From assembly GCF_900102025.1 (NCBI RefSeq), contig NZ_FNAU01000002.1, positions 1-64,000 on the forward strand: a DNA stretch of 64,000 nt. The letters run 5' to 3'. Source of the stretch: Actinobaculum suis. Its GTDB lineage: Bacteria > Actinomycetota > Actinomycetes > Actinomycetales > Actinomycetaceae. Within the stretch, counting starts at the first letter, position 1. Each line of letters begins with the position of its first letter. Position numbers and translations under genes: made by a program. This document shows, piece after piece, positions 3,622 through 41,694 of this stretch. The notes under the pieces are model-generated. The model saw nothing but the letters and a program-made list of their open reading frames with translations, did no database searches and was not told the DNA's origin.

Positions 3622-6600
3622 GGAAATATCTCCGCGCGTGCGGAGAAGAGAAAGTAAACTGGCCAACCCTAGGGTTTCTCTGGGAAATACCTCCGCGCGT
3701 GCGGAGAAGAGCGTGCAACGCATAAAGCTTACGAGCTGGGCGGTGAAATACCTCCGCGCGTGCGGAGAAGAGGGGGTTGAACGTTTACAGATTTTGATCC
3801 GCACGGAAATACCTCCGCGCGTGCGGAGAAGAGTAAGCCAAGCCACTTAGGCGCACCTCCTTTCTGGAAATACCTCCGCGCGTGCGGAGAAGAGACGCTG
3901 ATTGCTCGGAAGGTGAGTGCCATGTCGGAAATACCTCCGCGCGTGCGGAGAAGAGGGTCACCGAGCGGGTCACCTTCCGGATCACCGGGAAATACCTCCG
4001 CGCGTGCGGAGAAGAGCTACGCGCCGGGTGCCGTCAATCTTTTCCGTGTGAAATACCTCCGCGCGTGCGGAGAAGAGGCATGATCGCTGGCTTGGTCCGC
4101 CACATTGTAGGAAATACCTCCGCGCGTGCGGAGAAGAGTCATCCGGCCATATTCCCGCGTCGGTTAGGCCGGAAATACCTCCGCGCGTGCGGAGAAGAGC
4201 TGAGCCTTACCAGGCCCGGCGAAAACACGATGGAAATACCTCCGCGCGTGCGGAGAAGAGTCCCGCAGGACTCCAGTCGTTGAATGTTGCTGGGAAATAC
4301 CTCCGCGCGTGCGGAGAAGAGCTACGGTTGCGTAGTCCTTTTTGTTTCCTACGGGAAATACCTCCGCGCGTGCGGAGAAGAGGCAAGCCGGCCCAGAAAA
4401 TACCTGTATTCCTGGGAAATACCTCCGCGCGTGCGGAGAAGAGATGAACATGCGGCGCGGTGCATAACATTCACCGGAAATACCTCCGCGCGTGCGGAGA
4501 AGAGAGCCAAATTGCGATGCGGCATGAGGGGCAGCTGGAAATACCTCCGCGCGTGCGGAGAAGAGATGGAGTTAGCCGGCGGGGCCGAAAATGCACCGGA
4601 AATACCTCCGCGCGTGCGGAGAAGAGATCCAGCTTCTTCGAGGCTTTTAGCGGTTTCCCTGGAAATACCTCCGCGCGTGCGGAGAAGAGATCCAGCTTCT
4701 TCGAGGCTTTTAGCGGTTTCCCTGGAAATACCTCCGCGCGTGCGGAGAAGAGCCGGGTCCACTATCACTAGCGGCACACTACGCGGAAATACCTCCGCGC
4801 GTGCGGAGAAGAGGGAGTGAGTCGCGGAAGAAAATCCATTATCCAGGAAATACCTCCGCGCGTGCGGAGAAGAGGGCGTGGTGAGTGTTCGCCGCGACCC
4901 AACCACGGAAATACCTCCGCGCGTGCGGAGAAGAGTCATCCGACATTTGGCAAGCCGTTTCATACATGGAAATACCTCCGCGCGTGCGGAGAAGAGTCGC
5001 GCGGGCTACCATCAAGCGCCTGCGTATAGGAAATACCTCCGCGCGTGCGGAGAAGAGCTGCACGAAATCAGAGACATTAGCCCCAAGCCGGAAATACCTC
5101 CGCGCGTGCGGAGAAGAGCTGCACGAAATCAGAGACATTAGCCCCAAGCCGGAAATACCTCCGCGCGTGCGGAGAAGAGTTATGTCCTAGCACCGAGGAA
5201 TACGGAATACCGGAAATACCTCCGCGCGTGCGGAGAAGAGAACATGGTGCCCTAGCGGGATCATTTCATCCCGGAAATACCTCCGCGCGTGCGGAGAAGA
5301 GGTAACCTGTTGTAATCCACGCCGGCTTTCACCGGAAATACCTCCGCGCGTGCGGAGAAGAGTGATGGTGATCGGCGGCGGGCTTGCTTGGCAGGGAAAT
5401 ACCTCCGCGCGTGCGGAGAAGAGGATCCCGGCCCGAATGCTGATAAACCATCACCGGAAATACCTCCGCGCGTGCGGAGAAGAGCATCGCGATAGGCCCG
5501 TAAAAGAGTTTTACTGGGAAATACCTCCGCGCGTGCGGAGAAGAGACACAACACCGATCTAGGGCCGTTTTTAAGGAGGAAATACCTCCGCGCGTGCGGA
5601 GAAGAGCGGAATGTACTTGCCTGGCAAGGCCGGTAAACGGAAATACCTCCGCGCGTGCGGAGAAGAGCGGAATGTACTTGCCTGGCAAGGCCGGTAAACG
5701 GAAATACCTCCGCGCGTGCGGAGAAGAGGACCTCGCCACCTGCACAGGTTTTGCTAGAACGGAAATACCTCCGCGCGTGCGGAGAAGAGTCTCCAACACG
5801 CGATTCACTAATTCCATGCCGGGAAATACCTCCGCGCGTGCGGAGAAGAGTTTCTCACTATTGGGGAAGTTGTGGGAAGGGGGGAAATACCTCCGCGCGT
5901 GCGGAGAAGAGCGGATCTACCGGCAAGCCTACGAAATTTACGAGGGAAATACCTCCGCGCGTGCGGAGAAGAGCGGCAGGAGGCGACTGGCGCGATCCTG
6001 CGGGGGGGGGGGGGGAAAACCCCCGGAGAAGAGTTGCGGTAGGCGAGAGTTATCAGGCCCTGAGCTGGAAATACCTCCGCGCGTGCGGAGAAGAGTAGCC
6101 GACGACATCAAAGGCGTAGTTCTCGAAGGAAATACCTCCGCGCGTGCGGAGAAGAGTGTTGAAGTCTCCAGCCATGCCGGTACCGCAGGGAAATACCTCC
6201 GCGCGTGCGGAGAAGAGCGTTAGTGGCTGGGGATTGAAAGACCCCGAAGGGAAATACCTCCGCGCGTGCGGAGAAGAGAAGGAAACCGAGATGGAAGAAA
6301 AGACAGTGCCCGGAAATACCTCCGCGCGTGCGGAGAAGAGGGGGGTGTCCTTGTTGTAGTGGAGCATGGCATGGAAATACCTCCGCGCGTGCGGAGAAGA
6401 GCGCCGCTATTACCGGCGGGCACACTGATTAGGGGGAAATACCTCCGCGCGTGCGGAGAAGAGCCGGCCGTGTTGCGCGCCCGCGTCCTGAGCAGGGAAA
6501 TACCTCCGCGCGTGCGGAGAAGAGGCGCCGTGAAGGCCTGGCAGAGCGTAAAGCCCGGAAATACCTCCGCGCGTGCGGAGAAGAGCGGGCGTTTCGCGGC

Positions 6601-8903
6601 AGGTGGTGGAGCGAGCGGGAAATACCTCCGCGCGTGCGGAGAAGAGGTTGGGCCGCGGTATACGTAACCCTATTACCGGGAAATACCTCCGCGCGTGCGG
6701 AGAAGAGATTCTGTGCACGCGTTTATTCCGGTTAATTCGGGAAATACCTCCGCGTGTGCGGAGAAGAGCTCCCCGCCCATAGGCCCCGCCCACAGCAACG
6801 AGAAATACCTCCGCGCGTGCGGAGAAGAGGGTGTTCCCACAACCCGGCGATGTCGCTTTCTGGAAATACCTCCGCGCGTGCGGAGAAGAGCGATTCACCA
6901 GCTCCATGCCGGTTATCGCAAGGGAAATACCTCCGCGCGTGCGGAGAAGAGTAATCCCGCCCCGATCAGCCACCAGATCATACGGAAATACCTCCGCGCG
7001 TGCGGAGAAGAGCAAGCCGGTTCGGGCGGCCTGTATCCCCGTACGGAAATACCTCCGCGCGTGCGGAGAAGAGGGGGCAATAGTCGAGGGTGTCGATTAG
7101 GTCTAGGAAATACCTCCGCGCGTGCGGAGAAGAGTCGATAGGGAGGTCACCCTCAAAATTAAGGCCGGAAATACCTCCGCGCGTGCGGAGAAGAGTAGTG
7201 GGGGCAATGAATTTCGTCGCCTACCACGGAAATACCTCCGCGCGTGCGGAGAAGAGAGCCACAAACCACCACCCCCACAACCGCCCATGGAAATACCTCC
7301 GCGCGTGCGGAGAAGAGAATTTGCCGCCGCTATACGCGCCCGCGGCTACGGAAATACCTCCGCGCGTGCGGAGAAGAGAGCCACAAACCACCACCCCCAC
7401 AACCGCCCATGGAAATACCTCCGCGCGTGCGGAGAAGAGAATTTGCCGCCGCTATACGCGCCCGCGGCTACGGAAATACCTCCGCGCGTGCGGAGAAGAG
7501 AGCCACAAACCACCACCCCCACAACCGCCCATGGAAATACCTCCGCGCGTGCGGAGAAGAGAATTTGCCGCCGCTATACGCGCCCGCGGCTACGGAAATA
7601 CCTCCGCGCGTGCGGAGAAGAGTCTCCTAATACGGTGCGGTCCTATATTTCCCAGGAAATACCTCCGCGCGTGCGGAGAAGAGTGTTTGAGGGTTTCGAT
7701 GAGCGGGCCTGCCTGGGAAATACCTCCGCGCGTGCGGAGAAGAGGGGTGCAAAAAGCTGTTAGGAGGGGAGAAGAAGGAAATACCTCCGCGCGTGCGGAG
7801 AAGAGCCAAGCTAATCCAGACCGGTATGCCGCGATCGGGAAATACCTCCGCGCGTGCGGAGAAGAGCGACAGACCGCCAACCTTCCGGATTGCGGAGAGG
7901 AAATACCTCCGCGCGTGCGGAGAAGAGCGACTTCCGCATTTTTGAAGGCCGCTAAGGTTTGAAATACCTCCGCGCGTGCGGAGAAGAGCCACCTTCTGAA
8001 GCCGTACGTTCATCACCGCCGGAAATACCTCCGCGCGTGCGGAGAAGAGTGACCGGGCCGTATTGTCAGTACCTCGATCGGGGAAATACCTCCGCGCGTG
8101 CGGAGAAGAGTTGTCGAAGAAGAGAACGAGTGAGGTGCGGGGGGAAATACCTCCGCGCGTGCGGAGAAGAGCTTTTGGGATCCGCTCACTGCGTCATCGG
8201 AGAGGAAATACCTCCGCGCGTGCGGAGAAGAGAACGCGCCCGCCGGTGGAAGCGCTAGCGACCCGGAAATACCTCCGCGCGTGCGGAGAAGAGCAGCCCC
8301 GTCAATGACCGCTTCGGTCAAATATGGAAATACCTCCGCGCGTGCGGAGAAGAGAGGGCGCTTCTCGCGAGACCGTGGCGAGCCTCGGAAATACCTCCGC
8401 GCGTGCGGAGAAGAGATCACCGGTACGCCCTGCATACTCGCTGAGTAGGAAATACCTCCGCGCGTGCGGAGAAGAGTGCGGCGCGGTGCCCTGGAAATCG
8501 GGCATGCCGGAAATACCTCCGCGCGTGCGGAGAAGAGCGGTATTAGCGCGGAAATCGGCCCGGAAATTGGGAAATACCTCCGCGCGTGCGGAGAAGAGTC
8601 GACGCGGATGATGTTGACGCACGGGCTACAGGAAATACCTCCGCGCGTGCGGAGAAGAGGGAGGTTTCTACCCTAAGGGCGGCTTAGTTCGGGAAATACC
8701 TCCGCGCGTGCGGAGAAGAGTTTCCGGATTGAGATACGGGACAAGGATAGCGGGAAATACCTCCGCGCGTGCGGAGAAGAGCACGCGCGGCATCACCTAC
8801 AACGGCTTCACTGGGAAATACCTCCGCGCGTGCGGAGAAGAGCGAGGATTTCGGCTCTCTGCTGACCGAACGCTGGAAATACCTCCGCGCGTGCGGAGAA
8901 GAG
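3622..8903 (-). CRISPR. Type I-E CRISPR array, 87 repeats and 86 spacers
   Basis: A 29-bp repeat recurs every 61 bp (a few 60, 62 or 63) with mostly 32-nt spacers. Read on the minus strand the repeat is 5 nt, a hairpin CTCCGC-ACGC-GCGGAG, then an 8-nt 3' part GTATTTCC. This is the same 5-16-8 layout as the E. coli I-E repeat, so transcription is on minus and GUAUUUCC would be the crRNA 5' handle. The lowest-coordinate repeat (3622-3650) has a base change (TATC for TACC), as expected at the old, leader-distal end. The repeat at 6740-6768 has one change, and 6005-6033 is badly damaged. Spacers at 4627/4690, 5058/5119 and 5607/5668 are adjacent duplicates, and a two-spacer block occurs three times in 7257-7593. 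Confidence 0.98.
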
Positions 8904-8921
8904 ACTAAATGACCTGCGGTT

Positions 8922-9236
8922 TTATCGGCCGCTCGCCCAATTTTCGTTAATCCTACCGGGGCGCGAAGCAAAAAGCGTCAAGCCGTCGAAGTCGAGTGCC
9001 TTGCAGGCTTGCCGCCCGCTCATTTCAATTCCAAATCCTTGCTCACGGGAAGAATCGTTGTAGATCAAGACTGCGGAACCCTCTCCGGTTACTGTGCTGA
9101 GGCGTTCCCAGAGCTGCTCCTTAACATTGCGCGAAATAACGCCCACGTAAAGCCCCGAGCTCACTTCGGAAAGGAATCTACTCACATATCCATGTACGTG
9201 CTCAGGCACTGCGGAAAGCTGAATGACTGCAAACAC
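8922..9236 (-). CDS. cas2: Cas2e, adaptation complex subunit (type I-E)
   Basis: Subunit of the Cas1-Cas2 spacer integrase, where Cas2 is the central scaffold dimer. The 104-residue protein starts MFAVIQLSAVPEHVHGYVSRF and has the I-E specific form (E. coli Cas2 is 94 aa), with a ferredoxin-like fold and a C-terminal strand region after LFASRPGR. The start is GTG and shares one G with the cas1 TAG stop (TAGTG). The TAA stop (8922-8924) is only 18 bp from the first CRISPR repeat, so any leader signals for spacer integration must lie in those 18 bp or inside the 3' end of this gene. Confidence 0.93.
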   Translation of the reverse strand: MFAVIQLSAVPEHVHGYVSRFLSEVSSGLYVGVISRNVKEQLWERLSTVTGEGSAVLIYNDSSREQGFGIEMSGRQACKALDFDGLTLFASRPGRINENWASGR

Positions 9237-10309
9237 TATTCTTCATCCTTGCCATACTGCATATGCCCTGGCACTTCCCCTGAATCATCAAGAAGCCTGT
9301 CATCGTCGCGATGCGGCAGATGCGGCTCCAAGATCTCCATTAGAACATCAAGCATAGTCGGCAACACATTTTGCCGATGTATTTCCTTACGCAGCCGACG
9401 TCGAATTTCCGCCACCGGCTCTACCTCGTGGGCACACGAGAAAACTAGTGGCACCACGAGTCGCGCCTTGAAAAGATCCGCCAAATCAAAAAGCAGTGCC
9501 CGCGCGTTTCCCCGATGAATCACGCCCAGTGCTGGGTTCACCCCGATAGCCGAACACACAGTTGACGCAACGCCATACATAATAGAATTAGCGACGTTTA
9601 ACCCCGCGTTTACAGGATCTTCCGCCTCCGGATTACGCTTAAACCCCTTGATCTTCGCCTTCTTAGCGCCCTCCCGGTAAGCACTTCGCATGAGCCGGCC
9701 TTCCAGTCCCCGCATCACCTGCAGAGTTCCGCCTTTTATTACCCCTTCCCCAAACTGTTTACAGTAAAGCTTGCGGGCAGCTTCTTTCACATGCACTTCG
9801 GAAGAAATCAATTTCGCTTGCGCGATTGCCCACTTAGCGGAAGAAGTCAACGGCGTCGCCACCGCGTAACTCGTAATTCCGCTACCTCCCGAAAATACCA
9901 CCACGCATCCCGCCCTCGCGCACGAAGCCATAGCCGCATGCGAAATACTCGTTCCCGGCCCGAGCACCAGCACTCCGAGGCCGGCTACCGGTAACTGGAT
10001 CCGCAGCTTCAGCTGTTCGGTCTTCTCCCTATCTTTTACGGAAGCTTTCGCTTCCGCATCACTCATTTCCGAAACATCCGCTTCCGCTTCATCTGCTTCC
10101 CCATCACCCGCTTCCACATCATCCGCTTCCGCTTCACCCGCTTCCGGAGCTCCTGCTTTAGCATCATCCGTTTGGATAGCGATAACGCCGGTGCGGTCTT
10201 GCCGTATGAGTGCCCGCTCTAGGTACAGATACGAAATCCGGTCAGATATTCGCACTTGGTGGCTAGCTGGAATGCGCGAGAATGCCAGCGCCTCCTCAGA
10301 ATAATTCAT
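9236..10309 (-). CDS. cas1: Cas1e integrase with an acidic insertion
   Basis: Catalytic subunit that inserts new spacers at the leader-repeat junction. Metal-binding residues are present: E203 (RGLEG), H265 (VIHRGN), D275 and D278 (FDLADLF), so activity is expected. At 357 residues it is about 50 longer than E. coli Cas1. The extra length is an Asp/Glu/Ala-rich stretch at about residues 46-102, encoded by 10004-10174. It lies between TGVIAI and IQLPVAGLGVLVLGPGTSISH, that is, in a loop of the N-terminal beta domain. The insertion's DNA is made of short repeats of the type ATCCGCTTCC. The ATG overlaps the cas3 stop (ATGA). It is the third gene of the minus-strand cas operon. Confidence 0.95.
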   Translation of the reverse strand: MNYSEEALAFSRIPASHQVRISDRISYLYLERALIRQDRTGVIAIQTDDAKAGAPEAGEAEADDVEAGDGEADEAEADVSEMSDAEAKASVKDREKTEQLKLRIQLPVAGLGVLVLGPGTSISHAAMASCARAGCVVVFSGGSGITSYAVATPLTSSAKWAIAQAKLISSEVHVKEAARKLYCKQFGEGVIKGGTLQVMRGLEGRLMRSAYREGAKKAKIKGFKRNPEAEDPVNAGLNVANSIMYGVASTVCSAIGVNPALGVIHRGNARALLFDLADLFKARLVVPLVFSCAHEVEPVAEIRRRLRKEIHRQNVLPTMLDVLMEILEPHLPHRDDDRLLDDSGEVPGHMQYGKDEE

Positions 10310-13035
10310 GCGTGATTCTCCCCCGCACTTGCCGAGCTGTCCTCCCCGGTTCCGCCCTCTAGCCCCACGTAACCAATCTCTGGAGAGTAAAACCTTTCCG
10401 CACCTCGCAGCAAGTAATACCCCGCCAGCACTGATTTCGAGTCGCTAAGCGATTCCAAACTGCCCTCTTCACACAGCTGCGCGAACATATCCTGCTTGAT
10501 ACGCACGGTTATAGAAGCTTTGAGCGCTGCACGAATTATTGTTTGCCTGCTTTCATCTTTAGGTAACCGCTGCAGTTCTTCCGCAGTTCCCTGCCAGGCA
10601 CCGGGCACCGCGTCCGGGTCCCCACCCATAATCAACTGGTATTGGTCGCTATCATCAATGAGACGGGTGGAACTTTCGTCTTTAGGCAATCCCACGGTAA
10701 GAGCTTCAAAACTACCCGCTTGTGGATCTCCCGTAAGCAAATCCGCGATCCGTGCCTTTCGATTGCCCGCTTTCATCGCCTGAATAATCTGTTCTGCTAC
10801 TGCTTCTTCGTCATCCGCAGTCACTGCATCTTCTAAAGAAACCGCTGCTGCGTCCACAAATTCCTGCGCATTTTCCGGCAAAACTAACTTACCCCGGGGC
10901 CGAATCCAATCCACGGTACGTGTGAGTTCGGCTTTCAAGTATGGCCGCACCTTCCATGCTTCTGGATCTTCAATTACGGCCAAGCTCAACTCCATCCCAG
11001 TTTGCCCCGGAGCTCGTTCCGCCCGCAATGGGTCTTCACGCCGCCACAGCCTACCTAACCGTTGAATAAGCGAAGGAGCGGGGCAAAGTTCGGTGCGCAT
11101 AAAATCCAGATCGATGTCTAGCGATGCTTCGATCACCTGCGTGCCGACAACGGTTATTGCGCTTCCCGCACTCCCGGCTCCCACCGTTTCATGAAGCCTT
11201 TCGGTAAGCACGCGGCGATGCTCTGCCGTCATCCGGGAATGCAAGAGAACCACTTCGCTCCCCGCCGCGCGAGCAAGTTGCGCCGTTTCTTGCGCACGCG
11301 CCACTGTATTGCAAATAATGCCAATGCGCGCCTGCGGGAACCGCTGCCGGATCCGCTTTTCCCACGCGACGTGCCCCTCCACCATCTCTGCAAATGGCAC
11401 CTCATCCACCGCAATTTTTATCTCGCGAGCGCGGTCCGGTACCTTCGCGATCCGCAGCTCCGATTCAGCAAGAGATTCTACTGCGGGAAATTCGGTTTCT
11501 GGCAGAGCGAAGTTTTCGCCGCCGTAGGCGCGCATAAGCCTTTCACGTTGCCAGCTGGGCATGGTTGCGGTCAAGAAAGTAACGCGTGTACCCGTAGCGG
11601 CGAGCCACGGTAAAAGCTGACCCAAAAGCTCGGTTTGATACTGATCGAGGGTATGCACCTCATCAATTACCACGTGCGCATTTGCCAACGCTAATAACCG
11701 TAAATGGATCCATTTTCCAGGAAGGGCACCAGCAAGTGCCTGGTCAACGGTGCCCACGCAAATTGGGGCCAGTAACCGCGAAGCTCCTGATTTGACGAAG
11801 GTGGAAGGGTACAGGCCGCTGGGGCGCTGACTTTGCTCGGCCTCTATTTCTAGTTCCGCATCAGCTTTGGCATTTTTGTGCTGTGTGTTGGAATGGCCAG
11901 TGCTTTCGTCGTCGTACACCGTAATCGGGTTGGCATAAAAATCTTCGATCGAGGCGAGCCCGTGGGCTAGAGAGGCAACATTAGCTGTCCCGGCGTAGAT
12001 TTTTTGGATGCGAGCCATCATGGCATTAGTAGTAGCTTGCGTTGGCAATAGGAAAATCAGGCGCTCGTTTTTCGTGGCGTGGCGTAGTAGTGCCGCCTCG
12101 GTTTTGCCCGAACCGGTACTGGCCATAATCGAGTACAGTCCGGCCCCAGACTGCATAGCTTCTGCTTGTGCTGGCCGCGGAGCATGCCCCTGGAGGATTT
12201 TCTTACAGGCTTCTTCGGTGTTTCTCCAGGGCGGCGTGTATATGCCAACGGTTTCCCGCACTCGTTTTTCTGCTTCCGCGGAGCGGCGGGCAATCCAATC
12301 GGCTGGGGTGGCAAGGAGCTCCGGAGATTTGGCCAGAATTTCCTGCCCCGCAAGTACAAATTCTTCCCCCGAAGCAATTCGATCTGCCAGAATCACCAGT
12401 CCGGAAAGTAGCAAAGTGATAGCCGGAGCAACGGTTTCGGGCATTTCCTCTCGCGATATCCCGCATCCGGCAGCAACCGCGGCCAGTAAATCGCTTTGCG
12501 CGGCCGCCCAGCGGGTTTTTTCTACTTCCAGTAGGGCGGGGCGAATTTGCCTGGCTCTACCAACCACGCACTGCCAGCGCCCGTGATGGCCAGCTACTGT
12601 AAGTTCTTTCCAGGTGGCGCGCGCGGGAGCTTCCCGCCGTAATAAGTCCCCTTGCAAAGCGTACGCGGACCACGCTTCATGCCTGCGAATAACGGGATCC
12701 GTACTGGTAATGAGGGTACTTAGTGGAGAAGGTGGGCCGTATAACCCACTCGCTTTGATGCGACGGCGAATCTCTTCCCACACTTCTCCGCTTCGGCGGG
12801 GCTGAAGTTGAAACTGTGGTATGGCTTTTCCGGCGTCGTGCGCTCCACCCAGAAACTGGACCGTTTGCCGAGCTTTAGGGCCAAGTTCCGCGCTAATAAG
12901 ATCACGCAATTCGGGTCGTAACCAGGAATCGTAAAGCACGCCGATCACGGTAGCGGTGTCGAGCAAGTGCGCTAGAAGTGGGTACGTTTTGACGAGCCTG
13001 CTTTGTTTTGCCCATAGCTCAGGGTGGGTATTCAT
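10306..13035 (-). CDS. cas3: Cas3 helicase-nuclease (type I-E)
   Basis: Recruited by Cascade to unwind and degrade targeted DNA. The N-terminal HD nuclease has H66-D67 (GGAHDAGK) and GHHGRW at about 149-154. The SF2 helicase part has Walker A STGSGKT (about 306-312), a DEVH box (VVIDEVHTLDQ, near 458) and the motif TATMP. The C-terminal domain follows motif VI (QRLGRLWRR). The 909-residue length is normal for I-E Cas3. The ATG overlaps the cas6e stop by ATGA and its own stop overlaps cas1 the same way, so translation is coupled. Unlike the usual I-E order, cas3 lies between cas6e and cas1, on the opposite strand from the other Cascade genes. Confidence 0.96.
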   Translation of the reverse strand: MNTHPELWAKQSRLVKTYPLLAHLLDTATVIGVLYDSWLRPELRDLISAELGPKARQTVQFLGGAHDAGKAIPQFQLQPRRSGEVWEEIRRRIKASGLYGPPSPLSTLITSTDPVIRRHEAWSAYALQGDLLRREAPARATWKELTVAGHHGRWQCVVGRARQIRPALLEVEKTRWAAAQSDLLAAVAAGCGISREEMPETVAPAITLLLSGLVILADRIASGEEFVLAGQEILAKSPELLATPADWIARRSAEAEKRVRETVGIYTPPWRNTEEACKKILQGHAPRPAQAEAMQSGAGLYSIMASTGSGKTEAALLRHATKNERLIFLLPTQATTNAMMARIQKIYAGTANVASLAHGLASIEDFYANPITVYDDESTGHSNTQHKNAKADAELEIEAEQSQRPSGLYPSTFVKSGASRLLAPICVGTVDQALAGALPGKWIHLRLLALANAHVVIDEVHTLDQYQTELLGQLLPWLAATGTRVTFLTATMPSWQRERLMRAYGGENFALPETEFPAVESLAESELRIAKVPDRAREIKIAVDEVPFAEMVEGHVAWEKRIRQRFPQARIGIICNTVARAQETAQLARAAGSEVVLLHSRMTAEHRRVLTERLHETVGAGSAGSAITVVGTQVIEASLDIDLDFMRTELCPAPSLIQRLGRLWRREDPLRAERAPGQTGMELSLAVIEDPEAWKVRPYLKAELTRTVDWIRPRGKLVLPENAQEFVDAAAVSLEDAVTADDEEAVAEQIIQAMKAGNRKARIADLLTGDPQAGSFEALTVGLPKDESSTRLIDDSDQYQLIMGGDPDAVPGAWQGTAEELQRLPKDESRQTIIRAALKASITVRIKQDMFAQLCEEGSLESLSDSKSVLAGYYLLRGAERFYSPEIGYVGLEGGTGEDSSASAGENHA

Positions 13036-13769
13036 GCTAACGGCCTAACCGTTAGAAGGCCACATCCGTAGCTTTTTGCTCGGCCAATTCCTTGCAACTG
13101 CAACTGCAAAAGCTGTTCCGGATCGGCAACGCGTGCCACGCCGTCAACGGTATCTACTTGCACAACCCTGCCACTACCGCCCCTGAGGTTCCTTCCTGCG
13201 CGATCTGTTCCGAGCACTTCGCGCTGGTGGTTAATGATTTCGACGCCGGTGAGCGCGCCCACGAATCTGCTTTCTAGCCATGGGGTCATACGCGAAATCC
13301 CTTCCGGCGCTTCGGTATCGCCATCAAAAGGAACCGGCACCGCCTTCGTACCACCTCGTTTTTTACCACTTCGGGTATAAGATTCCGGCCCTTTTTGCCG
13401 CCGAATCGCATTGATTGCTATCCGAAATCCGAGTACTTGCCCCACCGGATACTCGCTGAGCTCTATTTGCTTGACTTCCAGACCCTGGCGTTCCTCTGGC
13501 CGTAACTGTGCTTGCACTAAGAAAAATGGTGGTTGACCTGGAAGTTTATCCACCCGGAAAAGCACTCCTGCCGCCGCCCGTCGCGCGCTTGTGCCGCTCT
13601 GTGCATCCGCCTCTGTTTCACTATCCGTCAAATCGCCGAATAGGGACATCACCGCACGATGTCGAAATTTTGGATCGTTAGGATTCCAGCCATTTTGCGG
13701 CTTGTGTTCTGCCTCTTGGGCGAGAGCCTCATGTAGCGGATATTTGGCAAGATATACGCGCTCGGACAT
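13032..13769 (-). CDS. cas6e: Cas6e crRNA endonuclease (Cse3/CasE)
   Basis: Cuts the pre-crRNA at the 3' base of the repeat hairpin and stays bound to the crRNA 3' end in Cascade. The 245-residue protein starts MSERVYLAKYPLHEALAQ. A family-like segment FRHRAVMSLFGDL (about residues 36-48) carries the candidate catalytic His, and the end GIGRAKSYGCGLLTVRPLA is the Gly-rich loop typical of Cas6e. The ATG at 13769 is chosen over one seven codons upstream because AAAGGAAAG sits just before it. It is the first gene of the minus-strand operon and is separated from the other Cascade genes, which is unusual for I-E loci. Confidence 0.92.
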   Translation of the reverse strand: MSERVYLAKYPLHEALAQEAEHKPQNGWNPNDPKFRHRAVMSLFGDLTDSETEADAQSGTSARRAAAGVLFRVDKLPGQPPFFLVQAQLRPEERQGLEVKQIELSEYPVGQVLGFRIAINAIRRQKGPESYTRSGKKRGGTKAVPVPFDGDTEAPEGISRMTPWLESRFVGALTGVEIINHQREVLGTDRAGRNLRGGSGRVVQVDTVDGVARVADPEQLLQLQLQGIGRAKSYGCGLLTVRPLA

Positions 13770-13929
13770 GAACTTTCCTTTCATCAGCAAGCCCCCGCAC
13801 CCTCGCGTTGAGCATTTAGTTAGTACAATGTTACGGTATGACCACTAGTGTGGTCGGCTAAGCCCACTGCAGTCTATTGGACCATAGCGCCGCACGTTGG
13901 TGTGCGGCTGATAAGGATGTAGGAATCAT
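13770..13929. promoter_or_regulatory. Divergent cas promoter region
   Basis: The only gap from which both cas operons can start. It holds a TACAAT hexamer (13824-13829), an inverted repeat GACCAC-TAGT-GTGGTC (13840-13855) that could be an operator, and a hairpin GCCGCAC/GTGCGGC (13889-13908) just before the cas8e ribosome site, where it could affect translation. No convincing -35 was found, and transcription starts are inferred only from the divergent layout. Confidence 0.45.
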
Positions 13930-15564
13930 ATGAATGGTGACGCACTTAAAACCGTGCAGTGGATCCACACCACTTCTGGCCCCTGCACACCGTATGAATT
14001 CTTGCTGCATTGCCATGAAACCGAATACGCACTTGATTTAGACCGACCCGGGTTCGAGGTGGGCGCGCAATTCCGCTTCTTACTTAGCATGGTAGCCCTG
14101 GCAGTACGCGAAGAGATTCCGGAAAGTGCGCGCCCAGGTGGCCGTATCACTCGGGATCAAGCCGAAAGACTAGTAGAAACAGGCTTTACCGAGAGTGCGG
14201 TTGCGGCCGCCTACGAAAAAGTGGCTCCCTACGCAAATCTTCGCGATGCCGAACGCCCTTTTATGCAGAGGCCAAGATTGGAGCCCACCAGCCCGAAGGA
14301 CAGTTCACGCCGCTTGGGGCGAAATGATCATCCAGTGAAAAAACTATCTCCTGCAATGCCTTCTGATGAAGGAGAAGATTATTGGAATTTATTGGTTAGT
14401 TTCCCAGAAGTTCTTACCGAAGCAGCAGCCACTCTATTGCTGGTGGTTAACCACTATTACTCGCTGGCTGGAAATAACAACTACGACGGCGACAAAGCGC
14501 AGATGGGGGCGCCTGGAATTCGTTTCCTGGGCAAAGGGAACGCTGCAACCGAATTCTGGTGGCAAGAAGATGAGCAAATACCTCTTGCCAGCATGTTAAC
14601 GTCAATTCCTCAAAATTGGATTCCCGGCGAAATACTTCCTGCTTGGGCAGAAAGGGATCCGAAGAAAGCACGCGAAGGCCTCGAGTTCGCCCCGCTCTGG
14701 GCTGCTACTTGGAGCTCAAATACCGCGGTCGGTTTTTGGGAAGGTGAGGAGCTTACTGGCGTACGAGTTGGTGGCATCCCCACTTCCTGGTGGCCCGTTA
14801 ATGCTTCTGATAAAAGCGGAAAGGCCCTGTTGAAACAATGGTGGGATACGCGAAACGAAGCCGATCCGCTATATCTTTACGTCGCAAACGATAAGAATGA
14901 GCTCAAGGCGCAACGTATCGATTTTGGACGCGATGGCACCGACCTTGCGGTCGAGTGGGCGGCAGAAGAGAAAATGCGGGCACTCACGGAAAGCACCGAA
15001 CAGAATCTGCTACCCACATCGGGAGCTGATAGGCGCCCGATTTTCCTCCGCCACCAGCTCGAGGGTACTGCTTCTTCTCCGTCAATTCGTGCCTCTGAAG
15101 TATTCTTCCCAGACGATACGGTATGGGCCTTCGATGTTCCTGAAGAGGCAATTTTCGCAGTGGTAGATGCAGCCCAGATTATCCGGGAAGTCCATAGTAT
15201 TTTTCGGGGCCGATTCCGGCGCCACTCCTCGCAAGACAGTAAGCGTGAACAGTCTTCGGGGCGCCTCACCCCTATTTTGGACGCGCTTGCGGATGCCCAG
15301 CCCGATGCTTCTGCCGAATTCTGGCGCGAGGTAACTGCCACTTACGAGGATTTCCTCGATTCGGCACGGCAGGGTCAACCTGATGTGGAAACGTTACTAC
15401 ACGGTTTACATCGAAGTGCTTTACTTGCTTATGACCGGGTGACCCACCCCTATCTGGACCAACATTCGGCGGAGATTTACTACACCCGATCTGCACTTTC
15501 CCGAATAATTCGGGCGAAGCTACGCGAAAAGTACCCAGTTTTCGATGAGGAATTGAAGGGATAA
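13930..15564 (+). CDS. cas8e: Cas8e (Cse1/CasA), Cascade large subunit
   Basis: Large subunit of type I-E Cascade that recognises the PAM, opens the target and recruits Cas3. The 544-residue protein has the family pattern: an N-terminal domain (EFLLHCHETEYALDL, then FRFLLSMVALAVRE), the segment PFMQRPRLEP, and a C-terminal four-helix bundle (about 390-540). The N-terminus lacks part of the common NLLxxPWIPV start and begins closer to it than usual. A GGATG/GGAAT ribosome site precedes the ATG. First gene of the plus operon, 4 bp before cse2. Confidence 0.93.
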   Translation: MNGDALKTVQWIHTTSGPCTPYEFLLHCHETEYALDLDRPGFEVGAQFRFLLSMVALAVREEIPESARPGGRITRDQAERLVETGFTESAVAAAYEKVAPYANLRDAERPFMQRPRLEPTSPKDSSRRLGRNDHPVKKLSPAMPSDEGEDYWNLLVSFPEVLTEAAATLLLVVNHYYSLAGNNNYDGDKAQMGAPGIRFLGKGNAATEFWWQEDEQIPLASMLTSIPQNWIPGEILPAWAERDPKKAREGLEFAPLWAATWSSNTAVGFWEGEELTGVRVGGIPTSWWPVNASDKSGKALLKQWWDTRNEADPLYLYVANDKNELKAQRIDFGRDGTDLAVEWAAEEKMRALTESTEQNLLPTSGADRRPIFLRHQLEGTASSPSIRASEVFFPDDTVWAFDVPEEAIFAVVDAAQIIREVHSIFRGRFRRHSSQDSKREQSSGRLTPILDALADAQPDASAEFWREVTATYEDFLDSARQGQPDVETLLHGLHRSALLAYDRVTHPYLDQHSAEIYYTRSALSRIIRAKLREKYPVFDEELKG

Positions 15565-15568
15565 TCTC

Positions 15569-16198
15569 ATGGATAATGCTCGCACGGCCACACCTCAGCA
15601 ACTAATCGCGCGCATACTCTCCCGCCGGGCGGATGGAACCGATAAGACCTTCCGCCAGCAACGCGCTAACTTACGCCGCGGCATCGACGAAAATACGGAA
15701 ACATTCGCAATTCCTTACGTATTCCCATTCCTTTCCGGGGATTCGAGCACCCACGGCCAAAAAGTGCTGCTAAGAACCGCAGCGCTGGTTGCTGAATTCG
15801 TGGAGATACCGCAGGATGATCGCACCTCGGATAGGCCACCAAAGCCATTCGGGCGGTGGTGCTACGAGGTGTCTGTAGCCCAGGCCCGAAAAGATGGTCA
15901 GGAGTTTATCCTCAACCCAGATAAACCCGATACGGTTGCACAGCGGCTCGCCTATATCCACACCCAAGACTTCGAGGAGGCAGTTCGCTCCGTGTACCGC
16001 CTGATGCAGTACGCGCGCGGCCTCACTCCACCACCCAGCCTGGATTATTTCGGTCTTTACCGGATGCTCAGTCGCTGGGGAAATGGAATCTCGGAGAGAT
16101 CTAGAAAAGTTCGTTCCGCGCCGCTACGGCACTATTACGCCGGCGCAGCAAGCTATTCACCCAAAGATAATTCCGATTCAACCACTAATACGCACTAA
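15569..16198 (+). CDS. cse2: Cse2 (CasB), Cascade small subunit
   Basis: Small helical subunit present as a dimer in type I-E Cascade, stabilising the R-loop along the backbone. The 209-residue protein has family features: TFRQQRANLRRGID, the central YIHTQDFEEAVRSVYRLMQYARG and the Tyr/Arg-rich end WGNGISERSRKVR. The last 25 residues are a Ser/Asn/Thr-rich tail. The ribosome site is provided by the end of cas8e (GAAGGGATAA). Confidence 0.9.
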   Translation: MDNARTATPQQLIARILSRRADGTDKTFRQQRANLRRGIDENTETFAIPYVFPFLSGDSSTHGQKVLLRTAALVAEFVEIPQDDRTSDRPPKPFGRWCYEVSVAQARKDGQEFILNPDKPDTVAQRLAYIHTQDFEEAVRSVYRLMQYARGLTPPPSLDYFGLYRMLSRWGNGISERSRKVRSAPLRHYYAGAASYSPKDNSDSTTNTH

Positions 16199-16206
16199 GG
16201 AAAAAC

Positions 16207-17298
16207 ATGGCTCGTCACCTTACTATCCATCAGATAACCAACGTTCCGTATTCAAATCTGAATCGTGACGATTCAGGCACTCCGAAGCGGGTCACGTTAG
16301 GAGGCGCTTTACGAGCTCTCCATTCCTCGCAATCTATCAAACGTGGCATTCGCACCAAGTATGAAGAAGCCAGCCTTAACACCTCCGTCAGGTCCGGAAA
16401 TATACTTGACGAGGTCATGGCAACTGTGGCCAAACTAGCCCCGGAAGCGGATATTCCCGCCTTACGGAAGATCGCCAATAAACGAATTGGAGAACTGACT
16501 AAAAGCAGTTCCGCGGAATCGGAATCGGACCGTTCAGTGTGGGTTAGTCAAGAGGAAATCAATACCCTAGCGGAGGCGCTAATACATCCAGATTCTGCAG
16601 AGGATGGAACGGATTTCATTTCCGGGAATGCAACGGGTTCTCTTGCTATTGCCGCTTTTGGCCGGATGTTTGCAAACTCTCCCCAACACAATACGGAAGC
16701 AGCGATTGCGGTATCGCCTGGAATTACCACCCACGCGGCAACTATCGAAACGGACTACTTCACTACCGTTGACGATATTAAAGAACGTGCGGGAGAAACC
16801 GGGGCCACCTATCTCGGCGTCGCACGTTTCGTAAATGGCACGTTCTACCGTAGCGTCACAATTGATCGTGAGCAGCTTAAAGAAAGCTGGACCGGATACG
16901 AAATGCCGGAAAATAGAGAGAATCTAAGCGAACTAATTCGAGCTATTGTTTACGGAGCTCCCCGCGGCAAAGAAAATGCCACAGCTCCCTACACGATGCC
17001 AAGCCTTCTGCTTGCGGAAGAACAGCGGTACCGCACGGCATATAGTTTCGAAAAACCGGTGGAGGCAGGCCGTGATGGCGGGTATGAAGAAACCAGCATT
17101 GCCGAACTTAACCGGCAATACAAGCAAGCCCGGTCCTTCGATCCGGGAAACTTTGGCCCTCTAGAACTCGTTTCCGGCACTGCTGAGCTTGACGAAGGCG
17201 AATTTGCCGGCGCCACATCCTGCAATCTCGATGACTTCATTGCGGGCATTGTGGATTGGATTCTAGAGCCGCTTAAAGACGCCGGGAATGAGGAGTAA
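16207..17298 (+). CDS. cas7e: Cas7e (Cse4/CasC), Cascade backbone
   Basis: Backbone protein, six copies of which line the crRNA in Cascade. The 363-residue protein begins MARHLTIHQITNVPYSNLNRDDSG, the I-E Cas7 start, followed by the RRM-like core (GGALRALHSSQSIKRGIR) and the segment TTHAATIETDYFTTVDD. An AAGGAAAAAC ribosome site precedes the ATG. Its TAA stop overlaps the cas5e ATG (TAATG). Confidence 0.94.
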   Translation: MARHLTIHQITNVPYSNLNRDDSGTPKRVTLGGALRALHSSQSIKRGIRTKYEEASLNTSVRSGNILDEVMATVAKLAPEADIPALRKIANKRIGELTKSSSAESESDRSVWVSQEEINTLAEALIHPDSAEDGTDFISGNATGSLAIAAFGRMFANSPQHNTEAAIAVSPGITTHAATIETDYFTTVDDIKERAGETGATYLGVARFVNGTFYRSVTIDREQLKESWTGYEMPENRENLSELIRAIVYGAPRGKENATAPYTMPSLLLAEEQRYRTAYSFEKPVEAGRDGGYEETSIAELNRQYKQARSFDPGNFGPLELVSGTAELDEGEFAGATSCNLDDFIAGIVDWILEPLKDAGNEE

Positions 17299-18020
17299 TG
17301 GATTGCCTCTACATTCGCCTCGCCGCTCCCCTGCAGTCTTGGGCAGGGCCGGCGGTAGCGGGAAATATCGTTCGCACCGAACGATTTCCCACGCGCTCTG
17401 GCCTCAAAGGCCTTCTCGCTGGGGCACTCGGTGCTCGGCGCGGTGCTTGGCCGAGTTGGCTGGATGAAGCTGAGTTTTGGGTTCGGCAAGATCGAAAACC
17501 TTATCTCACCGACGATTTCCAGACAATTAACCCCCGCGAAGAATCTGAGGAATTTCGACGCCGCATGATCATAATCCAAGGCCAACGGGTTAGTAAAAAG
17601 ACCCTGGTCTTCACACCCGACGCGCGAAGCGGAACCTCGATCGTAAATCGCACCTACCTAGCCGACGGCGAGTTTTTGGTACGAATCGCGGTAGCGGGCA
17701 AGGAAGACGAATTGGAAGACGCCTTGAGCTCCCCTGCTTTCGCCACCTATCTGGGCCGGAAAGCTTTCGCGCCAGAGTTTCCTTTCTACCTGGGTAGAGG
17801 ATCTGCCAATGCTTTTACTCAGATTCCTGCACCATTGCTAGCGCACCAAGAAGCAAATACCGCACAACGGCCGCTTACTTGCGTACTCTACGGACCTCAT
17901 ACGAGCCCGCAGGGAGAACGCACGCAGAATCTAGTGCCCGTCGTTGCCACTCAAAAGGAGCGGCTAGAGAAAATCTCCGAGTTGCTAGACATACGGCGGC
18001 CTCTGAATGCGCGGGCCTAG
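17298..18020 (+). CDS. cas5e: Cas5e (CasD), crRNA 5'-handle binding subunit
   Basis: Caps the 5' handle of the crRNA in Cascade. The 240-residue protein begins MDCLYIRLAAPLQSWAGPAV and has the Cas5 motif FPTRSGLKGLLAGALGARRG (the Arg/Ser/Gly region contacting RNA) and FPFYLGRGSANAF. Last gene of the plus-strand Cascade operon. The usual next gene, cas6e, is absent here and lies on the other strand. Two hairpin terminators follow. Confidence 0.94.
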   Translation: MDCLYIRLAAPLQSWAGPAVAGNIVRTERFPTRSGLKGLLAGALGARRGAWPSWLDEAEFWVRQDRKPYLTDDFQTINPREESEEFRRRMIIIQGQRVSKKTLVFTPDARSGTSIVNRTYLADGEFLVRIAVAGKEDELEDALSSPAFATYLGRKAFAPEFPFYLGRGSANAFTQIPAPLLAHQEANTAQRPLTCVLYGPHTSPQGERTQNLVPVVATQKERLEKISELLDIRRPLNARA

Positions 18021-18354: not shown

Positions 18355-21147
18355 ATGCGGACTTATACCCTTGGGGAATTCTCAACAATGGATGTGGAAA
18401 AGATTTACGACCACTTCGGGGTAGATGAATCTGGCGTCACCACCCCGCAGGTCGAACCACTCAGAAAGGAATTCGGGAGCAACACTTTCAGTTCCCAACG
18501 CGGCCCCTCCCTATGGAAACTCATTCGCGAGTCCTATTGCGGCCCGTTTTCGATCATTCTCTTCGTCCTCGCTATCATCACATTCCTAACCGATTTCGTA
18601 TATGCGCCGGCAGGAGAGAAAGACTTTTCTTCGCCCCTGATCATCCTGATTATCCTGATCATTTCGGGGACGATCTCACTAGTACAATCCGTACGCTCCC
18701 ATAAAGCAACCGCGGAACTAGAAAAACTGGTCCACGTGACCGCAGCCGTCTATCGCGATGGCGAATACCGCGAAATCCCCACCGAAGAAATCGTGTGCGG
18801 AGATCGCGTCAAACTCGCCGCGGGAGACATCATCCCCGCCGATATGCGACTCATCCACACCAAAGACCTCTTCGTCTCCGAATCGGCACTAACCGGCGAA
18901 TCCTACCCGGTAGAAAAAGTAGCCGAACCACGGCGAAGCAAAATACGGCGTAGCCGGAATAAACTGTCAGCGAGCGTGGGCGGCCAAAACCCGGCCGAAA
19001 CCGAGGCACTAGCCAGCCCCGATACCGCTTCCCAGCCAGCGAATAATTCCGGCGCCGATCACCAGGCTCACGCATCCAGTGCCGACCAGCCGGCTAATAA
19101 TTCCGGCGCTGACCAGCCGGAAAACATTGCCTATATGGCATCGAATATTGTTTCGGGCGCGGGTATCGGCGTCGTCGTTCGAACTGGAGAAAACACGGAA
19201 TTTGGGGACATCGCTTCCCGGCTTTCCGGACACTCAGAACCCACCGCCTTCGATATTGGCCTGGACAAAACTTCGCGCCTGCTGGTTAGGTTCATGCTGA
19301 TAATGACCCCCGCGGTATTGCTCGTAAACGGGCTCTCCAAAGGGAATTGGACCGATGCCTTTATTTTCGCGGTTTCAGTGGCCGTCGGACTCACTCCGCA
19401 ACTGTTGCCGATGGTGGTTACCACGAACCTCGTGAAAGGTTCCGCAACCCTCGCCCGGCGAGGAACGATCGTGCGCAACCTGAATGCCATACAAAACTTT
19501 GGCGCCATGGACATACTTTGTACCGACAAAACCGGCACCCTCACGCAAGATGAGATCGTTCTAGAACGGCACCTGAACTGCCACGGGGAAGAGGACCCAC
19601 GCGTACTCCGCTACGCCTACCTCAACTCCTACTACCAGACCGGGCTAAAGAACCTGCTGGACAAAGCGGTAATCCGTGCCGCGGAAGATGAGCTAAACAT
19701 CGACCGCCGCAAATACACCAAAGTTGACGAAGTCCCCTTCGACTTCAACCGGCGGCGCATGTCCGTAGTTATGCGTGATGAGGCCGGCCGGACCGAACTT
19801 ATTACGAAGGGTGCGGCGGAAGAAATGCTGGCCATTTCCTCCTTTGTGGAACTGGACGGGCAAGTCAAACCGCTTACGGAAGGCATCCGGCAAATGGTGC
19901 AGGCAAAAGTACGCCGGCTAAATGAAGACGGAATGCGTGTGCTCGTGCTGGCACGGAAAGACAATCCGCCGCGGGCCGAGGAATTTCAGCTTTCTGATGA
20001 GAGGGATATGGTGCTCATCGGGTATCTGGCTTTCCTCGATCCGCCAAAGAAATCCGCGGAAGCAGCGATCGCGGCCCTGCACGAAGCAAACATTGAAGTA
20101 AAAGTGGTTACCGGAGACAATCTCGAGGTCACCCGTACAGTTTGCCGCCAAGTAGGTATCCATGACCAGCGGATCATTTCCGGGGAAGAACTGGCCGCGT
20201 TGCCGCGTTCCGAATGGGCGGAAGCGGTAGAAAAGCACAATATTTTCGTGAAAATTTCTCCCGGCCAGAAAGCCGATATTGTGGAGCAACTGCGCGAAAA
20301 TGGCCATGTAACCGGCTTCCTAGGGGATGGTATTAACGACTCTCCGGCACTAGCTAAAGCCGATATCGGCATTTCCGTAGACACCGCGGTAGACATTGCA
20401 AAAGAATCCGCAGATATTATTTTGCTGGAAAAGGATCTTACAATCCTGGAACGTGGCGTACTTTCCGGCCGGGAAATCTTCGGCAACATTATGAAGTACA
20501 TCAAGATCTCGGTTTCTTCCAATTTCGGAAACGTATTTTCGATCTTGGTAGCCTCCCTGTTCTTGCCTTTCCTACCGATGTTGCCAACCCAGATTCTGGT
20601 GCTCAACCTGATTTACGATATTTCGTGCATGTCAATCCCTTGGGATCGCATGGACCGCGAATACTTGGCGCACCCAAAACGTTGGGACGCTTCGGATATC
20701 AAGAATTTCATGGTTTATTTCGGGCCGGTCAGCTCGATTTTCGACTGCATTACTTTTGCCGTCCTATACTTCCTGATCTGCCCGGCAATCATGGGAATGC
20801 CCTTCGGCCAAGCCGCCGGCACGCCCGCAGAACTCGGTTTCGAATCCCTATTCCACACGGGCTGGTTTATCGTCTCGCTGTGGACGCAAACCTTCGTGCT
20901 GTGGACCTTGCGCACCGAAAAGCTGCCGTTCATTCATTCCTGGCCATCTTTCACAATGTCCGTTATTACCTGCTTGGGAGTAGCCTTCGGCACCGCCCTG
21001 CCCTACACGGCGCTCGGCAACTACTTCAAGCTTTCCCCGCTGCCCGGTTTCTACTACTGGTTGCTAGCCGCCGTACTCGTCGGCTACTTCGTGTTGGTTT
21101 CCTTAATGAAACCCGCGTACGTGCGTAAACACGGCAAACTCTTGTAG
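18355..21147 (+). CDS. mgtA: MgtA-type Mg2+ P-type ATPase
   Basis: P3B-type ATPase that imports Mg2+. Seen in the 930-residue protein: an N-terminal domain, first membrane pair (about 65-112), actuator TGES (180-183), phosphorylation site DKTGTLT with D391, the hinge GDGINDSPA, and a C-terminal membrane domain of six segments. An extra stretch of about 65 residues (about 189-257, encoded near 18919-19125) interrupts the actuator domain after GESYPVEK. It is Ser/Ala/Asn/Asp-rich and repeats QPANNSGAD twice. E. coli MgtA has only a short loop there. AAGGAGGAACC before the ATG is a strong ribosome site. It stands alone between two terminators. Confidence 0.93.
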   Translation: MRTYTLGEFSTMDVEKIYDHFGVDESGVTTPQVEPLRKEFGSNTFSSQRGPSLWKLIRESYCGPFSIILFVLAIITFLTDFVYAPAGEKDFSSPLIILIILIISGTISLVQSVRSHKATAELEKLVHVTAAVYRDGEYREIPTEEIVCGDRVKLAAGDIIPADMRLIHTKDLFVSESALTGESYPVEKVAEPRRSKIRRSRNKLSASVGGQNPAETEALASPDTASQPANNSGADHQAHASSADQPANNSGADQPENIAYMASNIVSGAGIGVVVRTGENTEFGDIASRLSGHSEPTAFDIGLDKTSRLLVRFMLIMTPAVLLVNGLSKGNWTDAFIFAVSVAVGLTPQLLPMVVTTNLVKGSATLARRGTIVRNLNAIQNFGAMDILCTDKTGTLTQDEIVLERHLNCHGEEDPRVLRYAYLNSYYQTGLKNLLDKAVIRAAEDELNIDRRKYTKVDEVPFDFNRRRMSVVMRDEAGRTELITKGAAEEMLAISSFVELDGQVKPLTEGIRQMVQAKVRRLNEDGMRVLVLARKDNPPRAEEFQLSDERDMVLIGYLAFLDPPKKSAEAAIAALHEANIEVKVVTGDNLEVTRTVCRQVGIHDQRIISGEELAALPRSEWAEAVEKHNIFVKISPGQKADIVEQLRENGHVTGFLGDGINDSPALAKADIGISVDTAVDIAKESADIILLEKDLTILERGVLSGREIFGNIMKYIKISVSSNFGNVFSILVASLFLPFLPMLPTQILVLNLIYDISCMSIPWDRMDREYLAHPKRWDASDIKNFMVYFGPVSSIFDCITFAVLYFLICPAIMGMPFGQAAGTPAELGFESLFHTGWFIVSLWTQTFVLWTLRTEKLPFIHSWPSFTMSVITCLGVAFGTALPYTALGNYFKLSPLPGFYYWLLAAVLVGYFVLVSLMKPAYVRKHGKLL

Positions 21148-40333: not shown

Positions 40334-41694
<1,361 letters not shown>

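Follow-up and report, generated by a model that had tools for sequence, protein, structure and literature searches.

An acidic, repeat-encoded hairpin loop in a type I-E Cas1 protein of Actinobaculum suis

A beta hairpin in the N-terminal domain of a type I-E Cas1 protein of Actinobaculum suis bears a long, negatively charged loop at its tip, and this loop is encoded by diverged copies of a 15-base tandem repeat. The corresponding gene lies in the stretch of DNA analysed here (hereafter ‘the window’), which comprises 64,000 nucleotides from one end of contig NZ_FNAU01000002.1 (positions 1 to 64,000, assembly GCF_900102025.1). The length of the hairpin tip is fixed in the ordinary Cas1e proteins that were measured, variable in the branch of type I-E Cas1 proteins to which the window’s protein belongs, and extended further in the window itself. 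We consider it likely that the loop is an in-frame expansion of the tandem repeat at a permissive surface hairpin tip, and that the protein tolerates this expansion for the most part, with DNA binding affected only mildly if at all. Judged from its sequence, Cas1 itself appears intact, and the loop is most likely tolerated and possibly modulating.

The type I-E locus and its Cas1 protein

The assignment to type I-E is based both on Cas1 and on its gene neighbours (Table 1). Cas1 scores 232.8 bits in the family scan with the Cas1e model TIGR03638, for which the curated cut-off is 215.6. The same scan recognized cas2e, cas3, cas6e, cse2, cas7 and cas5 in the vicinity, and cse1 was identified by Pfam, with a match that covers only part of the model; no NCBIfam model matched cse1 at E 0.001. 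A small acidic stretch is also present in Cas3, at residues about 383–403.

Table 1. Positions of the features of the type I-E CRISPR–Cas locus within the window, with the basis for each assignment
Feature	Positions	Strand	Basis or description
CRISPR array	3622..8903	-	86 repeats (<=7 mismatches), 85 intervals, 78 distinct; script
cas2e, 104 aa, GTG start	8922..9236	-	TIGR01873, PF09707
cas1 of type I-E, 357 aa	9236..10309	-	TIGR03638, PF01867, fold match to solved Cas1
Acidic repeat-encoded loop, residues 46–102 of Cas1	10004..10174	-	composition, codon shuffles, block pLDDT 27–41 over residues 51–100
15-base tandem repeat, 8.1 diverged copies	10049..10170	-	Tandem Repeats Finder
cas3	10306..13035	-	TIGR01587 and TIGR01596 over cut-off; PF18019, PF22590
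cas6e	13032..13790	-	TIGR01907
cse1 (cas8e)	13930..15564	+	PF09481, 53.7 bits
cse2	15569..16198	+	TIGR02548
cas7	16207..17298	+	TIGR01869
cas5	17298..18020	+	TIGR01868

The preliminary description of this DNA, made from the sequence alone, had held that Cas1 is intact apart from its insertion and retains E203, H265, D275 and D278. This assessment is upheld by the score above the family cut-off and by a 19-row alignment of Cas1 proteins (alignment A2, from which L017 was excluded as its Cas1 is the same as that of L016), where these four catalytic residues are identical in all rows. Two of the 88 columns that are invariant in the other 18 rows are changed in the window’s protein, both outside the loop, and the other rows, when each is left out and treated in the same way, show between zero and five such changes. 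The best fold match for the modelled protein is 6ke1 (Z 25.6, rmsd 2.9 over 253 residues). Thus, the window’s protein shares its fold, catalytic residues, Cas2e partner and surrounding gene set with the ordinary type I-E Cas1 proteins, including those solved from E. coli, Thermus thermophilus and a Cas2-DEDDh system, but differs from them in the span of its hairpin.

The array presumably lies on the strand given in Table 1, as judged from the form of its repeat in comparison with known type I-E repeats. One of its intervals is 93 bases long and may conceal another repeat. The array also holds repeated spacers, which occur as three pairs of identical neighbours and as a two-spacer unit present three times (4598–4752, 5029–5179, 5578–5728 and 7226–7622).

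These observations bear on the possibility that the loop is a sign of functional decay in Cas1, which we regard as quite unlikely. The terminal branch leading to the window’s protein in a quick tree is rather long (0.43, versus 0.22 for L009 and 0.33 for L010) and the genome encodes a second type I-E Cas1. However, the reading frame is open, the catalytic residues are kept, almost all otherwise invariant columns are unchanged, and 80 of the 86 array repeats match the consensus exactly. Gene decay was therefore set aside as unsupported. The second cas1 is of ordinary length, resides on another contig (G000:C31, locus L001), and has beside it an apparent array and frames that resemble cas2 and cas6.

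Structure, composition and repeat of the loop

In the predicted structure of Cas1, the loop forms the tip of an N-terminal-domain beta hairpin, between strands formed by residues 41–46 and 103–106. The low block pLDDT values across this region (Table 1) predict a disordered loop, within which residues 84–96 form a helix of low confidence. The model of a relative, made with a similar alignment, places the corresponding strands at residues 42–45 and 71–76, and its tip is likewise of low confidence. Mean pLDDT is modest in both models (69.2 for the window’s Cas1 and 70.1 for the relative).

Residues 45–102 include 13 alanines, 11 glutamates and 9 aspartates (33 residues in all) and have a net charge of -14. 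The loop is more acidic than any other stretch in the long frames of the window: when all frames running at least 300 codons from stop to stop were divided into 13413 overlapping stretches of 59 residues, at least 20 aspartates and glutamates were found in 11 stretches, every one of them at the Cas1 loop. This exceptional composition is a counterpoint to a reading in which the repeat has simply expanded.

Tandem Repeats Finder detects the underlying DNA repeat with a period of 15, 8.1 copies and 69% matches, and reports a period of 45 as well. The self-identity of the DNA at lags of 15, 30 and 45 bases was matched in 0, 1 and 0 of 5000 gene-wide shuffles of synonymous codons, and in 4, 12 and 16 of 5000 shuffles when codons were re-dealt inside the loop only. 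Because self-identity exceeds that of the shuffled sequences, amino acid composition alone does not account for the DNA repeat. The frequency with which pairs of the same residue use the same codon is a weak measure, and was matched in 190, 47 and 187 of 5000 gene-wide shuffles and in 1331, 246 and 2083 of 5000 shuffles inside the loop. Taken together, the repeat, the composition and the flanking strands in the model bear out the earlier proposal that the N-terminal beta domain of Cas1 is interrupted by an acidic stretch encoded by repeats.

Hairpin length among relatives and the origin of the loop

Matches to Cas1 at E <=0.001 were found in 121 of the 213 genomes of the family, the weaker of which are probably other Cas1 types. 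Among the matches listed, 19 loci (L005–L023) constitute a separate type I-E branch with 50–69% identity to the window’s protein in the C-terminal part; ordinary Cas1e proteins are about 32–39% identical to it. A scan of named genomes contributed 23 loci, including additional members of the branch from Corynebacterium, Rothia and a MAG of Arthrobacter, and twelve groups of loci are identical between the two sets. A quick tree, built after removal of the hairpin, parts the 30 rows of the window’s branch from 69 ordinary rows by a single branch with an SH-aLRT value of 100.

The same kind of picture has been described for Corynebacterium striatum. According to PMC9944170 and PMC12231136, type I-E′ is a form of type I-E with a divergent cas gene order and a cas1 branch about 30% identical to ordinary type I-E Cas1, and outside C. 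striatum its Cas1 is reported there from C. simulans only; PMC12231136 credits type I-Eb to Sangal et al. 2013. The window’s branch is likewise distinct from ordinary type I-E cas1, and could be the published branch or another of its kind.

The span of the hairpin was measured between two anchors with a pattern that caught 111 of the 120 loci. In all 68 ordinary Cas1e loci of the family caught by this pattern, the span is exactly 41 residues, which suggests that a constraint on hairpin length has been relaxed in the window’s branch. This branch comprises 43 loci and 29 distinct sequences, the window included, and its site length differs between species: the span is 45–55 residues in each of the 28 distinct relatives and 94 in the window. 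Nine loci lack a match to the pattern. Three of these (L058–L060) had been included to represent other families, L056 and L119 appear disrupted, and L057, L101, L117 and L118 carry an uncaught Cas1, which for L101, L117 and L118 is an ordinary Cas1 by eye. Ordinary matches from G006, G030, G032 and G085 were left out of the locus set.

An insertion of about 57 residues had been proposed for the window’s protein. Although the stretch is real, relatives in the branch already carry a tip of variable length, and therefore only about 39–49 residues are unique to the window. The long form was found in none of the 28 distinct relatives measured. Likewise, a search of 394 genomes drawn from the class, at E <=1e-60, returned only the window’s protein and one distant relative, whose tip is short by eye. 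The short tips of the branch carry net charges from -6 to +2. Those of the closest relatives, L005–L007, are acidic (net -5 to -6), and the tip is neutral or positive in 8 of the 19 loci L005–L023.

A plausible series of events can be proposed from these comparisons. The hairpin tip would first have been freed to vary in length within the window’s type I-E Cas1 branch. A 15-base unit may then have multiplied in the lineage of the window, by replication slippage or by unequal recombination, and drift among the copies would have yielded a disordered, negatively charged loop while leaving the fold and the catalytic residues intact. We favour tolerated repeat expansion because the repeat outperforms codon shuffles, because hairpin spans differ between the window, its branch and ordinary Cas1e proteins, and because the short tips of the branch cover a range of charges. 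The low confidence of the model between two strands, seen also at the tip of the relative, and the near-complete preservation of otherwise invariant columns point in the same direction, as do other in-frame repeats found nearby.

These other repeats were examined by taking 26 non-CRISPR tandem arrays in the window, with one row used for each. Twelve fall within stop-to-stop frames 300 or more codons long and all twelve have a period divisible by three, a tally that is weak since such periods favour long frames and since an overlapping repeat row at 41564–41629 gives a period of 25. Stronger evidence comes from a P-type ATPase gene (18355–21147, plus strand), in which one repeat (19032–19120) lies within an insertion of 51–53 residues that is absent in 7 of 7 homologues compared; this comparison used seven pairs of flanking pieces from a subset of homologues, one from the same genome and one from the other genome of the genus. 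Both the ATPase and the Cas1 insertion would be accounted for if repeats in exposed loops tend to grow in frame. However, the ATPase insertion is far less acidic than the Cas1 loop, and slippage alone therefore fails to explain the composition of the latter. The acidic tips of L005–L007 are a second counterpoint to simple expansion, as they hint at a preference for negative charge at this site.

Possible effects on DNA binding and spacer acquisition

The loop could alternatively serve as an electrostatic brake. A tethered polyanion would compete with DNA for the basic surfaces of the Cas1–Cas2 complex, thereby reducing non-specific binding and tuning the rate or choice of integration. Cas1 has a net charge of -7 with residues 45–103 and +6 without them, and the net charges of 24 other Cas1 proteins range from -4 to +6. 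Acidic disordered regions of Hfq (PMC5606850) and of HMGB1 and engineered homeodomains (PMC10250230) reportedly work in this way, competing with nucleic acid and autoregulating its binding. Similar to the Hfq C-terminus and the HMGB1 tail, the Cas1 loop is acidic, disordered (by prediction) and tethered to a nucleic-acid binder, but it is internal whereas the others are tails. The acidic tips of the nearest relatives also favour a brake. Conversely, the long form is present in no relative measured, neutral or positive tips are frequent among L005–L023, and Cas2 is of ordinary length (104 aa, with a net charge of -1). We regard such a brake as unlikely. A more elaborate proposal, that the repeat constitutes a length-adjustable electrostatic gate in which slippage by 15 bases alters the tethered charge, tunes DNA capture or integration and creates heritable variation in the rate of adaptation, appears distinctly unlikely.

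Alternatively, the loop might recruit a partner protein to the N-terminal domain of Cas1, the domain to which Csn2 binds in type II-A systems (PMC6620040 and PMC12216489). However, neither the list of open reading frames nor the family scan reveals an additional gene among the cas genes, the loop is missing in the relatives measured, and its sequence is of low complexity. This arrangement is decidedly improbable.

The preliminary description had raised DNA mimicry and guidance of prespacers as possible roles, and had also suggested that the loop takes the place of a missing host factor that bends DNA, such as IHF. Two-subunit IHF is known from E. coli, and no IHF of this kind was seen in the genome, which is 95.5% complete and encodes a single protein matching the HU/IHF family PF00216 (98.9 bits). 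On the other hand, an actinobacterial IHF is encoded (124.2 bits, against a cut-off of 60), and one would expect DNA to be repelled, not bent, by an acidic loop. The leader offers a further comparison. In the window, the first repeat lies only 18 bases from cas2, and the leader must therefore extend into cas2 (8904–8960, minus strand). By eye, it resembles the leaders of relatives that lack the loop. A GATAAAA-like motif is likewise visible by eye about 20 bases ahead of the repeat, and recurs in several relatives. Replacement of a host factor is thus extremely improbable, and was dropped as a main reading.

Arrays near cas2 are common in relatives without the long loop. A script found the repeat in 15 of 26 such loci, at a distance of about 16–24 bases after cas2 in 11 loci (of which L009 and L034 are the same sequence) and of 83–326 bases in 4. 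At the remaining loci the script missed cas1, cas2 or the repeat, and L007, which was read in the wrong orientation, yielded nothing. The presence of arrays beside cas2 in these relatives speaks against an essential role for the loop as well as against host-factor replacement. Absence of the insertion from close relatives with active adaptation had been named at the outset as evidence against the proposed roles. The insertion is indeed absent from the relatives measured, and the arrays at cas2 suggest, rather than establish, that adaptation in them is active. We conclude that the loop is probably tolerated and not essential, and that it could damp the grip of Cas1 on DNA.

Among the titles listed in our literature search, which reached few subscription papers, none concerns a Cas1 insertion that is acidic or encoded by repeats. 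The window thus presents a Cas1 site that has naturally absorbed some 40–50 extra residues, in a branch whose tip is variable, at a position where the ordinary Cas1e proteins measured keep a single length. Such a site is useful for integrase engineering. If its charge matters, the loop would offer a straightforward way to ask how electrostatics governs the rate of spacer capture; if the loop is only tolerated, it is a tidy example of repeat expansion, though one of minor importance.
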